Assembly: GCA_009838845.1 (NCBI GenBank)
Contig: VXRD01000013.1
Span: 1-59,336 of the forward strand
DNA: 59,336 nt
Direction: 5' to 3'
Source: Gemmatimonadota bacterium
GTDB lineage: Bacteria; Latescibacterota; UBA2968
The position numbers and the translations under genes were made by a program. Below are positions 12,286-17,801 of this stretch, in pieces. The notes below the pieces were generated by a model. That model worked only from the letters and a program-made list of their open reading frames with translations. It was not told where the DNA came from and did not search any database. Within the stretch, counting starts at the first letter, position 1. Each line of letters begins with the position of its first letter.

Positions 12286-13473
12286 TTAATCATCCCACTG
12301 CAAGGATCCCGCGCTTTGATAATCCGTGACGCGCGTTTCAAAGAAGTTCTTTTCTTTGGCGATGTCGATGGTTTCACCCATCCACGGGAATGGATTTTTC
12401 GATCCATATACGCTTTGTAGGCCGATTCGTTCCAATCGGCGGTCGGCAATGAATTGCACGTATTCGCGGAATAAGTCTTCATTGAGGCCCAGTACGCCGT
12501 CGGGCACACAATCCCGTGCATAGATGACTTCATATTCCACGGCTTCGTGGATGAGGTCGTAGATGTCGCGCTGCAGTTCCGTTGTCCAGATTTCTGGATT
12601 TTCGAGTTTTATGGTGTTGATCAGGTCGATGCCAAAATTCAGATGTATGGTTTCGTCGCGCAGGATGTACTGGAATTGTTCGCCAATGCCGGTCATGCGG
12701 TTTTGCCGATGGAAGGAGAGGATCATTACAAAGCCGCTGTAAAAGAAGATGCCTTCCATGATGACGTAAAAGCCGATGAGATTTTTCACGAATTTCTGTA
12801 TGCCTTCAATGCTTTGTGTTGTAAAATTGGGGTCCAGTACATCTTCGGTTAGTTCCATAACGAATTTGTCTTTGCCTTCGATGGAGGCGACTTCGTGATA
12901 CATGTTGAATACTTCGCGCGCGTTCAGGCCCAGGGATTCGACGATGTAGTGGAATGTATGGGTGTGTATGGCTTCTTCAAATGCCTGGCGCAAGAGGTAT
13001 TGCCGCGCTTCGGAGTTTGTGATGTGTTTGAAGATGGCGAGTACGATGTTGTTGCCGACGAGGCTTTCGCCCGTGCTGAAGAATCCGAGGTTTCGCAAGA
13101 TGACTTTTCGCTCGGCGTCGTTCAGTGCATTTGAACGCCAGAGTTCTATGTCGCGCTGCATGGGCACTTCTGTCGGCATCCAGTGATTGGCACATCCGTT
13201 GAGATAGTGCTCCCATGCCCATTCGTATTTGAGAGGCATCAACTGGTTCACATCTACCTGCCGGCAGTTGAGCAATCGCTTGTCTTCCGGGTTGATGCGC
13301 TTGGTCAGGTCATACGCCTCGCCAGTGGCACCACAACACAGCGCGGATGGCACGTCAGTGTTATCCGCTTCAACGGGTGCATGAATACCGTTTTGCTGTG
13401 CGTGACCACCGTTTTGGTAGTCCATATTTGCATGACTTTCAACATCTTCGTCTTCAAATATGAGCTTAGCCAT
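12286..13473 (-). CDS. nrdB: ribonucleotide reductase small subunit, class Ic-like (R2c)
   Basis: A 395-residue ferritin-like R2 subunit that generates the cofactor needed by NrdA to reduce ribonucleotides to deoxyribonucleotides. Visible metal ligands are Glu136, Glu167, His170, Glu240, Glu274 and His277. The radical Tyr of standard class Ia enzymes (four residues after the first His) is Phe174 (IHTHTF), and the first ligand is Glu, not Asp. Both traits match the Chlamydia-type class Ic R2, which uses a Mn/Fe cofactor without a tyrosyl radical. The N-terminal 75 residues form a variable extension with a CC pair. AAAGGAG precedes ATG 13473. It has its own promoter, long leader and terminator, separate from nrdA. 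Confidence 0.93.
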
Positions 13474-13809
13474 ATCACAACTCCTTTATTGTTCAGCGGG
13501 GAGATGCATACGATGATAATTTCAAAAATGTATATGTATTACTTTAGGGGTAACACATGCGATACTTTTGTGGGTAGCATTCTGCAAGATAGATATGTCA
13601 TACAAATCAAGGACAAGCATGACGAGGGGGACTCGTTCACTATGTCCATGGCTGTGTCGATACCTGTGTATCAGGTGGGGGAAGTCGTAGGGAGAGGGGA
13701 TGGTCTTAAAGCGCTACCCCCTATTGCTTTAAGTTATTGCTGCACTTTTATTTACGCCACAATACTTTGTAACTAAAAAAAAACGAGCACAAAATGTTGT
13801 GGTAAAGAC
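13474..13809 (-). ncRNA. long structured 5' leader of nrdB mRNA (candidate cis-regulatory RNA)
   Basis: The predicted start site near 13809 leaves about 335 untranslated bases before nrdB. Three perfect local stems are visible: CTTAAAGC/GCTTTAAG (13705-13733) whose loop carries a run of five G in the transcript, ACCTG/CAGGT (13662-13676), and ACGAG/CTCGT (13622-13636). C-rich single strands just after the first hairpin could pair with its G-run as a pseudoknot. No coding sequence is evident, and I find no cobalamin box. Confidence 0.45.
13757..13802 (-). promoter_or_regulatory. pair of candidate NrdR boxes upstream of nrdB
   Basis: Two 16-bp imperfect palindromes, GCACAAAATGTTGTGG (13787-13802) and CCACAATACTTTGTAA (13757-13772), have centres exactly 30 bp (three helical turns) apart, the usual spacing for NrdR repressor sites. 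They lie just downstream of the predicted start site. The first resembles the nrdA site GCACAATATATGGTGG. Confidence 0.6.
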
Positions 13810-13815
13810 GTGCCT

Positions 13816-13845
13816 ATTATAGTATAAAAACACCCACATTGTCAA
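13816..13845 (-). promoter_or_regulatory. sigma-70 promoter of nrdB
   Basis: Reading on the - strand: -35 TTGACA (13845-13840), 18-bp spacer, -10 TATAAT (13821-13816). Both hexamers are perfect consensus. It points at nrdB with a start near 13809. Confidence 0.8.
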
Positions 13846-14194: not shown

Positions 14195-14494
14195 ATGGAT
14201 CAGATCCGCGAATCATCCATTATCCAATACTTTAAGCAAGAAGGCAGAGAGGAAGGTTTTGAGCAGGGCAGAGAGGAAGGCATTGAGCAAGGCAGAGAGG
14301 AAGGCATTGAACAAGGTATCCAGGAAAGTATCCAGGAAGTTCTGGAGATTCGATTTGGTCTCCGCGAGACAAATCCCCTATTTGCTCGCATCGCGGCTAT
14401 TGACAACGTGCAGTACCTCAAGCAGTTACGCCGTGCGGCGATACAGGTGTCCAATCTTGATGAATTTGAGCACATGTTAGATGTAACGGCGTGA
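14195..14494 (+). CDS. small Glu/Gln/Gly-rich coiled-coil protein (Rpn/DUF4351 nuclease C-terminal-like)
   Basis: A 99-residue protein with a very strong ribosome-binding site (AAGGAGGG) ahead of ATG 14195. Residues 16-45 are three tandem copies of an eight-residue repeat of the type EGREEGIEQG, encoded by 24-base repeats. The rest (EVLEIRFGLRETNPLFARI...) resembles the C-terminal tail of Rpn-family PD-(D/E)XK recombination-promoting nucleases. The nuclease domain itself is absent. Either this is a 5'-truncated relic or an independent small gene; the good ribosome-binding site and candidate sigma-54 promoter favour expression. It sits between nrdB and nrdA on the opposite strand. Confidence 0.65.
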   Translation: MDQIRESSIIQYFKQEGREEGFEQGREEGIEQGREEGIEQGIQESIQEVLEIRFGLRETNPLFARIAAIDNVQYLKQLRRAAIQVSNLDEFEHMLDVTA

Positions 14495-14515: not shown

Positions 14516-14552
14516 ATAAAAAAGGGAGTGCAGATTTACTTTGCACTCCCTT
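14516..14552 (-). terminator. intrinsic terminator of nrdA
   Basis: An 11-bp perfect stem (AAGGGAGTGCA / TGCACTCCCTT, 14522-14552) is followed on the - strand by a T-rich tract at 14516-14523. It is 25 bases past the nrdA stop. Confidence 0.88.
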
Positions 14553-14577: not shown

Positions 14578-17469
14578 CTACTGACACGCCTCGCAGGTCC
14601 CGTCTGTAATATCGCATGACTCGGCTGTTGGTGCTGGGGTAGCAGGGGCCTGTTGGTGTACCTGCCCGTTGAGAGATGCGTCTGTTTCTGCAGGTGCGTC
14701 TTCGCGTTGTACTTGCACATCGCTCGAAGCGGATTTGGATTGCATCCACCGGGGTTGGACGCCGCGTTTGTTGATGTCCATGGTGGATTTTTCGATCTGG
14801 GTCGCTGCCAGCGAGCGCAAGTAGTACGTGGTTTTCAGCCCGCGCACCCAGGCGAGTTTGTACATGTCGTCCAGTGCTTTGCCGCTGGGGGCTGCGATGT
14901 ACAGATTTAGCGATTGGCCCATGTCGATCCACTTTTGCCGGCGGCTGGCGCATTCGATGAGCCATTCGGGTGCCACTTCAAATGCGGTTTTGTAGAGGTC
15001 TTTCACATCTTGCGGCACGCGGTCGATTTCCTGGACTGAGCCGTCGTAGTATTTCAGATCATCTACCATCTGGTCGTCCCACAGGTCGCGCGCTTTTAAG
15101 GCATCGACCATGTAGGGATTTAATACGGTAAAGTCACCGGACAGATTTGCTTTTACATACAGGTTGCGATACATCGGCTCGATGGATTGCGTCACGCCCG
15201 AGATGTTCGAGATGGTGGCGGTTGGGGCAATGGCCATCACGTTGCTGTTTCGCATGCCGTGTTTGGCGACTGCCTCGCGCACCACATTCCAGTCCAGGCG
15301 CGCGGATGTATCGACTTCGAGGTACGCCCCGCGTTCCTGTCCCAACACCGCCAGAGTATCGATGGGCAATATACCGCGATCCCATTTTGAACCGATGTAG
15401 GAATGGTATGTGCCGCGTTCTTCGGATAGGCGCGTTGAGGCGAGGATCGCGTAATACGAGATCATTTCCATGCTGATGTCGGCAAAGTCAACTGCGCCTT
15501 GCGAAGCGTAGGGCAAATTCAACAGGTAGAGCGCGTCCTGAAATCCCATCACGCCCAGGCCCACGGGGCGGTGGCGTTTGTTGGATGTGGCGGCTTCTTC
15601 TGTGGGATAGAAATTGATGTCTATCACGTTGTCCAGCATCCTGAGTGCTGTCGATACCGTGTCTTCCAGCAACTCGCGGTTGAGGCCCGTGGGTGTGATG
15701 TGCGCCACGAGATTTACAGAGCCGAGGTTGCATACCGCGGTTTCTTCGCGGCTCGTATTCAACAGTATTTCAGTACACAAGTTTGAGCTGTGAACGACGC
15801 CCGCGTGATCCTGCGGGGAGCGGATGTTGGACGGGTCCTTAAATGTGATCCACGGATGCCCGGTTTCAAAGAGCATGGACAACATTTTTCGCCACAATTG
15901 CACGGCGTCGATCTGGCGAGATTGTTGCAGTTCACCGGCTTCGGCCTTTTGTTCATAGGCGAGGTATTTCTCTTCAAAGGCTTTGCCGTACAGATCGTGC
16001 AGGTCGGGGACTTCATCCGGGCTGAACAGGGTCCAGGATCCCTTTTCCATGACGCGTTTCATAAACAGGTCGGGGATCCAGTTGGCCGTGTTCATATCGT
16101 GTGTGCGGCGGCGGTCATCGCCCGTGTTTTTGCGCAACTCCATAAAATCTTCGATGTCCAGATGCCAGGTTTCCAGATAGGAGCATACCGCCCCTTTGCG
16201 TTTTCCGCCCTGGTTGACGGCAACTGCCGTGTCGTTCACGACTTTCAAAAATGGAATGACGCCCTGGCTTTTGCCATTTGTGCCGCGGATATAGGAATTT
16301 GTGGCGCGCACATTTGTCCAGTCATTGCCCAGACCGCCCGCCCATTTGGATAATTTGGCATTGTCGGATACCATTTTGAATATGTGTTCCAGATCATCTT
16401 GCGCGGTTGATAGATAACACGAGGACAACTGCGGATGCAGGGTGCCGGCGTTGAACAGGGTGGGTGTGGCAGAGACAAATCGGAAGGAAGAGAGTACTTC
16501 GTAAAATTGAATGGCGCGCGCCTCTTTGTCTTCTTCGTCCCAGGACAGGCCCATTGCCACGCGCATCCAGAAGAACTGCGGGGTTTCAATGCGGCGCTCG
16601 TTGACGTGGAGCAAATAGCGATCAAAAATGGTTTGTACGCCCAGGTATTCAAAGTCTTCATCGCGCTCGGGTTTTAATGCCGCGGATAGACGCTCCAGGT
16701 CAAATACGCGCAATTTGGGATCTAAACGGTCGTTTTTAATGCCCGTTTCAATAAATTTTGCAAATCCCTGCCGACAGGCTGTGTCCCTGTCTTCTATCGC
16801 GGGTTTGAATCCCAGGGCGTGGCGATAGATCACGTTGAGGAGCAACCGCATTGCGACTTTGCTATAGGCGGGTTCTTTTTCCACGCGGCTGCGCGCTGCC
16901 AATATCATGGCGCGTTCGATATCGTCGGGTTTGATGTCGTCGTAGAGGGAGCGATATATCTCGTCGAGCAGGGCCTGGGGATCTACCTCGTCATCGCAAA
17001 CGGCAAATACTTCGGTGCGAATGCGGTTGGCGTCGAGGGGTTCGCGCTTGCCGTCGGCTGTTTGTACGCGCAGTTTGGGCGCGTTGGGGTCCTGGGGTTC
17101 TTCTTTGCCGCTGAGTACGCGGGCTTTTTTGTGGTCTTCTCGATAGACGATGTAGCGTCGCGCGACCGCAAAGTGGCCTGCACGCATTAATTGGATTTCG
17201 ACTTTGTCTTGAATGCGTTCGACATCTACGCTGTCATCCGGCTCGTGCAGTTCCCCTTCAATTTCAGAAATAACAGCGTCGGTGAGTTCCGACACGTCGG
17301 TTCCAATTTTGGGCGGCAATGAATGATCGTTGGACAAGCCCAACTCGGCTCTAAATGCCGCCTCAATCGCGCGTTCAATGCGCGCGCGGTCAAAATCCAC
17401 GACCCGACCATCGCGTTTGCGAACCGCAAAATCAACCGCTTCCAGTAAAGTGTCAACTATTTCGGCCAT
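14578..17469 (-). CDS. nrdA: ribonucleoside-diphosphate reductase large subunit
   Basis: A 963-residue class I R1 subunit. It has two N-terminal ATP-cone allosteric domains (about residues 13-110, starting [12 protein letters not shown], and about 125-205, starting [14 protein letters not shown]). The active-site blocks are present: NLCTEILL with radical Cys and Glu, AVCNLGS with the redox Cys, [12 protein letters not shown], and the paired tyrosines in KTTYYLRS that relay the radical. The C-terminus ends in a CEAC redox pair used by thioredoxin. Tandem ATP-cones are also known in Chlamydia-type enzymes, which fits the class Ic-like NrdB. GGGAGG precedes ATG 17469. Separately transcribed from nrdB. 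Confidence 0.95.
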
Positions 17470-17766
17470 GCATGCCTCCCAAATGCGAAACTACTCCCGC
17501 GCGTTTCGGCAGAAAAAATAAACCCGTAACCGCTGCACAAAGGTCACAACGGGGAGGGTTGAAAAGATGAGTCTGGGGATGTGTTTTAAGACAACAAATC
17601 GGGAAAACATAAGGTTGGAAATCCCAATCGCAGAGGAGGGGAGAGACCGCGAATAATGGATTTGTTTTCCCGAAAATAGTAATAACTTACGCAGTTGTAA
17701 TGATTTGTTTGAGTTTGTAAAAAACAGGTTAAGGGGGAGAGTGGATAAATTTTCACTAACAACCGC
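17470..17766 (-). ncRNA. long structured 5' leader of nrdA mRNA (candidate cis-regulatory RNA)
   Basis: The predicted start near 17766 leaves about 300 untranslated bases. A perfect 10-bp long-range stem joins 17599-17608 (TCGGGAAAAC on the + strand) with 17664-17673. It encloses 55 bases containing a GGTTGG/CCCAATC hairpin and a pyrimidine-rich strand (CTCTCCCCTCCTC in the transcript). The layout recalls the nrdB leader, but no shared sequence is obvious by eye. No coding sequence seen. Confidence 0.4.
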
Positions 17767-17768
17767 AA

Positions 17769-17801
17769 GCACAATATATGGTGGTCTATGAAAAAAGTCA
17801 A
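17769..17801 (-). promoter_or_regulatory. nrdA promoter overlapped by a candidate NrdR box
   Basis: On the - strand: -35 TTGACT (17801-17796), 17-bp spacer, -10 TATATT (17778-17773). The NrdR-like palindrome GCACAATATATGGTGG (17769-17784) covers the -10 hexamer, as expected for a repressor. A weaker match lies about 29 bp further upstream, over the -35. Confidence 0.65.

Follow-up and report, generated by a model that had tools for sequence, protein, structure and literature searches.

In the 59,336-nt window analysed here (the whole stretch of DNA, contig VXRD01000013.1), the RNR gene nrdB is preceded by a consensus promoter, a conserved tandem pair of candidate NrdR boxes and a long, C-rich and G-poor leader. 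This arrangement is best read as an NrdR-repressed promoter feeding a leader under post-transcriptional control, exerted by Rho or another binder (estimated probability about 0.6). The nucleotide-sensing cis-regulatory RNA that the earlier note had proposed for this leader is replaced in this reading by an operator and by C-rich words that are shared with the nrdA leader.

The nrdB transcription unit

The genome assembly comprises 172 contigs (5.75 Mb), and nrdB matches at 95–98% identity are mostly from Candidatus Latescibacterota MAGs. Comparisons were made with ten further genomes of the genus (G001–G010) and four of the family (G011–G014). The features of the locus are:

12286..13473 (-), nrdB, class I RNR small subunit (PF00268 and NF005550 matches)
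13816..13845 (-), nrdB sigma-70 promoter, TTGACA-18-TATAAT (12 of 12 consensus matches)
14522..14552 (-), terminator hairpin with T tract after nrdA, between the two transcription units (sequence scan)
14578..17469 (-), nrdA, class I RNR large subunit (profile matches)

The promoter is located about 335 nt upstream of the nrdB ATG (13473), which confirms the distant consensus promoter and the long leader described earlier. Judging from the promoter position, transcription is expected to start near 13809. A homologous promoter is present in six genus members (the genome itself, G001, G003, G004, G007 and G010); the -35 and -10 elements were found also in G010, G007 and G004.

In all six genomes with the nrdB promoter, the nrdA stop codon is followed within 140 nt by a perfect hairpin of 8–15 bp. 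In the four genomes without the promoter the corresponding hairpin has at most 6–7 bp. This comparison covers 10 of the 11 genus members (G008 was left out), and the co-occurrence of hairpin and promoter has a chance probability of 1 in 210. With a predicted intrinsic terminator after nrdA, nrdB would need a promoter of its own and form a separate transcription unit. Its promoter is ordinary and well supported.

A 99-aa open reading frame with EGREEG repeats is located between the two genes (14195–14494, plus strand). By eye it resembles the C-terminal end of a 337-aa open reading frame in G001 (L062 4467-5480); neither has a Pfam match. A second, partial nrdB-like copy is found near nrdB in G008 (L071 4323-4868, 60% identity to residues 4–199). 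An apparent nrdB intein in G011 was rejected, the insert being a run of masked letters.

Candidate NrdR boxes at nrdB, nrdA and nrdR

13787..13802 (-), candidate NrdR box 1, CCACAACATTTTGTGC, 12 of 16 positions as in the consensus, kept in 6 of 6 homologous promoters including the genome's own
13757..13772 (-), candidate NrdR box 2, TTACAAAGTATTGTGG, 11 of 16 positions, 14 bp after box 1
17773..17801 (-), nrdA promoter, TTGACT-17-TATATT, overlapped by NrdR box CCACCATATATTGTGC (17784..17769)

The two boxes lie just downstream of the nrdB -10 element. The longest inverted repeat of the leader (13757-13770/13789-13802, 14 nt, 86%) coincides with these tandem 16-bp palindromes. Scored against what we take to be the NrdR-box consensus, which was not found in the paper searched for it, the pair reaches 23 of 32, the highest value in the window for pairs 28–34 bp apart. 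Of 30 simulated windows, one reached this score; of 1000 shuffled versions of the 111-nt promoter region, 0.1% did. Over 59 kb it is not extreme.

Both boxes are kept at a distance of 30 or 31 bp in G001, G003, G004, G007 and G010. The spacer has 14 bp in the genome itself and 15 bp in G001 and G004, which falls inside the range of 14–17 bp reported for NrdR binding to box pairs (PMC12051234). According to the same report, repression in vivo is efficient with spacers of 15–17 bp, whereas spacers of 13 bp or shorter abolish it. The 14-bp spacer is at the edge of the workable range, which counts against the operator reading. Mutational tests of NrdR boxes at RNR promoters are reported for Pseudomonas and Salmonella (PMC4409342, PMC2892513).

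The genome encodes NrdR (TIGR00244, 182.8 bits versus a cut-off of 124.65), as do all 15 genomes searched. A conserved box pair is present 71–72 bp upstream of nrdR, with a score of 24–25 in nine of ten genomes and 19 in G008, and nrdR is apparently autoregulated. The box at the nrdA promoter is conserved in nine aligned genus genomes including the genome itself; it is missing in G008.

The tandem boxes at the nrdB promoter are very probably an NrdR operator, as predicted from their sequence, position and conservation. The strongest of the inverted repeats that the earlier note had read as RNA hairpins corresponds to this predicted operator DNA, kept in all six homologous promoters. Therefore, nucleotide sensing is most likely a property of the protein NrdR (ATP/dATP) and not of the leader RNA.

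UCCCC words in the RNR leaders

13474..13756 (-), remainder of the nrdB leader, rich in C and poor in G (base composition)
13498..13700 (-), cluster of four UCCCC words in the nrdB leader (word count)
17470..17772 (-), nrdA leader, 303 nt, with four UCCCC words at 17551-17738 (word count)

The fractions of C and G are 0.24 and 0.17 in the nrdB leader and 0.26 and 0.18 in the nrdA leader. On both strands of the window, 300-nt segments with at least four TCCCC are found only in these two leaders. TCCCC is the most enriched of the 1024 5-mers in the two leaders jointly (4 + 4, product of Poisson tails 4.0e-8), the word having been picked after inspection of the leaders. In dinucleotide shuffles the counts have P values of 0.001 (nrdA) and <0.0005 (nrdB). 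The enrichment of UCCCC in both RNR leaders is statistically solid.

For a wider scan, a cluster was defined as at least four TCCCC in 300 nt. In 1,974,584 bases of this genome (120 stretches and the window, about 34%), 35 clusters are present, of which 32 lie inside open reading frames of at least 260 aa. Only three are outside: those of the two RNR leaders and one at L316:4546-4689. The control word CCCCT forms 11 clusters in the same 1.97 Mb, coding and noncoding positions pooled. The third noncoding cluster falls in the 300 nt that precede a sigma-70-family gene of 293 aa. In NCBIfam this gene is matched best by RpoD and RpoS models, none of which reaches its cut-off. The 364-nt region upstream of this gene is conserved in all nine other genus genomes searched (73–97% identity), and a promoter-like site, TTGACA-17-TATTTT, is found at L316 4847..4819. 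The leader of this gene (L316:4397-4720) contains six UCCCC words in all and folds with a z-score of -2.54.

Among relatives, G011 and G012, from two other genera, have four UCCCC words each in the nrdA leader. Two are present in nrdB of G010 and in nrdA of G002, G007, G009, G013 and G014, and one in nrdA of G008. The promoters of G004 and G007 feed other genes, yet two UCCCC words are retained there. In a wider set of 51 usable nrdA upstream regions the mean is 0.35, without enrichment; this set includes family member G011 (L098) with three words.

Placement of the words in hairpin loops was examined twice. The first test showed no excess (19 of 28 C4 runs versus 63% in shuffles). A stricter energy test gave Fisher values of 0.076 (the genome's own three leaders), 0.0011 (four nrdA leaders from the outgroup) and 0.0008 (all 26 sites); no site of the nrdB leader itself was significant. 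Some sites are located in good hairpin loops, as in UCGCGG-UCUCUCCCCUCCU-CUGCGA of the nrdA leader and CAAGUAUU-AUCUUUCCCCUC-AAUACUUG of the sigma factor leader. UCCCC is proposed as a loop motif only weakly because the energy test was designed after some of these hairpins were known and because the nrdB sites are not significant.

The C-rich strands are thus non-random and shared with the nrdA leader, so control at the RNA level may still take place by means other than an aptamer. That the UCCCC leader is functional has slightly less than an even chance in our judgement. No earlier report of UCCCC leaders, or of RNR in Latescibacter with such a signal, was found in the open-access literature, and by the literature searched the signal is new.

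The nrdA leader also contains an 80-nt core (17595-17674, minus strand) that is nearly invariant in nine genus genomes. It has a nested stem, UCGGGAAAAC/GUUUUCCCGA, with UCUCUCCCC in the inner loop, and no Rfam match. As a covarying RNA this core was rejected, as no two-sided change is present and the fold is not the same in G008, G013 and G014. In family member G013, a cobalamin riboswitch (RF00174, 49.7 bits, L182 1056-1196) is located in the nrdA leader.

Conservation of the leader and insertions in the nrdA-nrdB gap

The strongest alternative is that the NrdR operator alone matters, the leader beyond it being a passive remnant left in a gap prone to recombination, with incidental C-richness. 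The gap between nrdA and nrdB ranges from 29 bp in G002 to many kb elsewhere; G002, G005, G006, G008 and G009 lack the leader. Four of the six homologous promoters keep the full leader. The other two, in G004 and G007, lead together with their boxes into inserted AAA-ATPase/DUF4276 cassette genes; in G007 the cassette is directly behind the NrdR-box promoter. Cassettes of an AAA_21 ATPase and DUF4276 are found between nrdA and nrdB in L064 (2574-5862), L066 (3505-5765), L065, L068 and L069. They are HEC-01-like according to PADLOC models scanned for G007 and G005, with similar open reading frames seen by eye in G004, G006 and G009. The variable size of the gap and its inserted cassettes make it an insertion hotspot. 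The leader as a decayed HEC-01 gene was discarded, since tblastx against the inserts of five relatives gave nothing convincing.

The divergence of the leader also favours a remnant. Four full leaders (the genome itself, G001, G003 and G010) and two partial homologues (G004 and G007) were aligned. Overall identity is 70–78%, below the 82–85% at fourfold sites of nrdB (versus G001 and G010); the leader overall diverges faster than these sites. One segment departs from this pattern:

13584..13651 (-), near-invariant block (alignment columns 241-290; 49 of 50 positions identical to G003, 48 of 50 to G001, 37 of 47 to G010)

The block is nearly identical in three species, two of which, G003 and G001, hardly differ from one another over the leader. 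This block and the UCCCC enrichment common to the nrdA leader argue against a passive remnant, which we regard as possible but clearly less probable than the main reading. A coding function of the block was rejected after inspection of three frames by eye, as gaps of 2 nt and 1 nt disrupt it in G010. The leader looks mosaic over 13584-13830 (minus strand): the 5' part is closest to G010 (in the alignment also to G007) and the 3' part to G003 and G001.

Pairing and folding of the leader RNA

The C-rich words might instead be anti-Shine-Dalgarno strands that sequester the ribosome site of nrdB. In the predicted folds of all four leaders the Shine-Dalgarno sequence is mostly paired with C-rich strands. 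The partner strand, however, differs between species, so no specific pairing is conserved, and the complementarity between UCCCC and the AAGGAG site is not full-length. This explanation is improbable.

Besides the two longer inverted repeats, three 6-nt palindromes are present in the leader region (13474-13816). The longer repeat outside the operator is:

13705..13733 (-), 8-bp hairpin CTTAAAGC/GCTTTAAG, 8 nt perfect (13705-13712/13726-13733), loop with AGGGGG (inverted-repeat search)

Further small hairpins are visible as ACGAG-UCCCC-CUCGU and ACCUG-AUACA-CAGGU. The hairpins of the earlier note are real as inverted repeats, the strongest of which belongs to the predicted operator DNA. The 8-bp hairpin is present in six species with scattered broken pairs, and none of its 12 pairs shows a two-sided change among them. 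It is a single copy in the genome itself, and its pattern has one unrelated match among relatives, in G006. The G-rich loop facing C-rich strands likewise holds for the sequence itself, where both are present. The loop is G-rich in four species and C-rich in two (G004 and G007), and was rejected as a conserved kissing partner.

The whole 336-nt leader folds with a z-score of -2.92 (1 of 100 shuffles as good). Without the operator (13474-13756) the value falls to -1.71 (11 of 200 shuffles as good), so much of the folding excess stems from the operator palindromes in the DNA. Operator-less leaders of G003, G010 and G001 have z-scores of -0.23, +0.29 and -1.47, respectively. The covariation analysis suggested earlier was run on the genus relatives: none of the 56 RNAalifold pairs of the four full leaders shows a two-sided compensatory change. 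With four to six sequences these tests have low power, and the lack of covariation is an absence of support and not a disproof. In the near-invariant block, G010 has gaps and folds differently; a paired deletion there could rescue one stem, in our reading of the alignment. In agreement with the earlier statement that no known riboswitch is recognizable, no Rfam family reaches its gathering score within the window, and among permissive matches to the region a eukaryotic snoRNA scores highest (20.2 bits versus a threshold of 53). No homologue outside the genus was found at E < 0.01 among 100 genomes. Thus, in spite of the whole-leader z-score and the one hairpin kept in six species, a riboswitch or other structured cis-regulatory RNA is very improbable: once the operator is removed, folding is no better than in shuffled sequences, with z-scores near zero for two of the four species, no compensatory change is seen, and a nucleotide-sensing aptamer is unsupported.

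Proposed mechanism

RNA polymerase would start the nrdB transcript near 13809, from a separate promoter required by the intrinsic terminator after nrdA. When dATP is plentiful, the tandem boxes (about +7 to +53) would be occupied by the ATP-cone repressor NrdR, which would block initiation or promoter escape. The boxes at nrdA and nrdR would act together with them. Over its remaining ~280 nt, the leader would contain no aptamer and most likely act after transcription start, the C-rich UCCCC leader being either a Rho-loading (rut-like) attenuator or a landing site for a factor that binds C-rich RNA.

The best 78-nt C-over-G bubble of the nrdB leader has 33 C versus 12 G, against about 80–90 nt for the bubble expected of a Rho-dependent attenuator, and ranks only in the top 1.2% among the windows of a 649-kb sample of the genome; that of the nrdA leader is in the top 2.1%. 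The genome contains a rho gene, and Hfq was not detected in a search of it. Rho loading would be the simplest candidate and a dedicated RNA-binding protein a bolder one. Rho as the actual reader, suggested by composition, is a doubtful assignment. Equally speculative and rather unlikely is a post-transcriptional regulon in Latescibacterota. It would comprise the UCCCC leaders of nrdA, nrdB and the group-2-like sigma-70 factor, with the words partly in hairpin loops, and a single RNA-binding factor or Rho would link the sigma factor to dNTP synthesis, in addition to NrdR.

The analysis replaces the riboswitch guess for the nrdB leader with a testable operator and adds a sequence signal shared by the mRNAs of both RNR subunits in an uncultivated phylum. 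Should the UCCCC leaders prove real, RNR control would have a second, RNA-level layer that is tied to a sigma factor and has a reader as yet unnamed.

Comparison with known systems

In CsrA/Rsm regulons, GGA is repeated in loops. The leaders described here are similar in that a short repeated word, sometimes in hairpin loops, occurs across several leaders. They differ in the word itself, UCCCC, and in its loop placement, which is not significant for the nrdB sites. We know of no binding protein for this word.

Rho-dependent leader attenuators (rut), such as the reported S. meliloti DUF1127 leader (PMC12218461), resemble the leaders described here in their C-rich words and the presence of rho, and in a C-over-G stretch that is here only a candidate bubble. 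As a difference, no upstream ORF is shown here.

The closest match of the promoter is to the NrdR operators of RNR genes in E. coli, Salmonella, Pseudomonas and Streptomyces (Rodionov and Gelfand boxes). As in those, two 16-bp palindromes are placed about three turns apart at an RNR promoter, and nrdR is encoded and apparently autoregulated. Unlike in those, the spacer has 14 bp, the boxes lie just downstream of the -10 element and nrdB has its own promoter apart from nrdA.

For nrdAB of Cutibacterium (Propionibacterium) acnes, an nrd-box at the promoter is reported together with a leader, annotated as a cobalamin riboswitch, in which transcription seems to stop early (PMC3848588). The nrdB leader has no Rfam match. 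As far as that report describes the system, both loci would combine two layers, NrdR at the promoter and control through a long leader, the second of which is predicted here.
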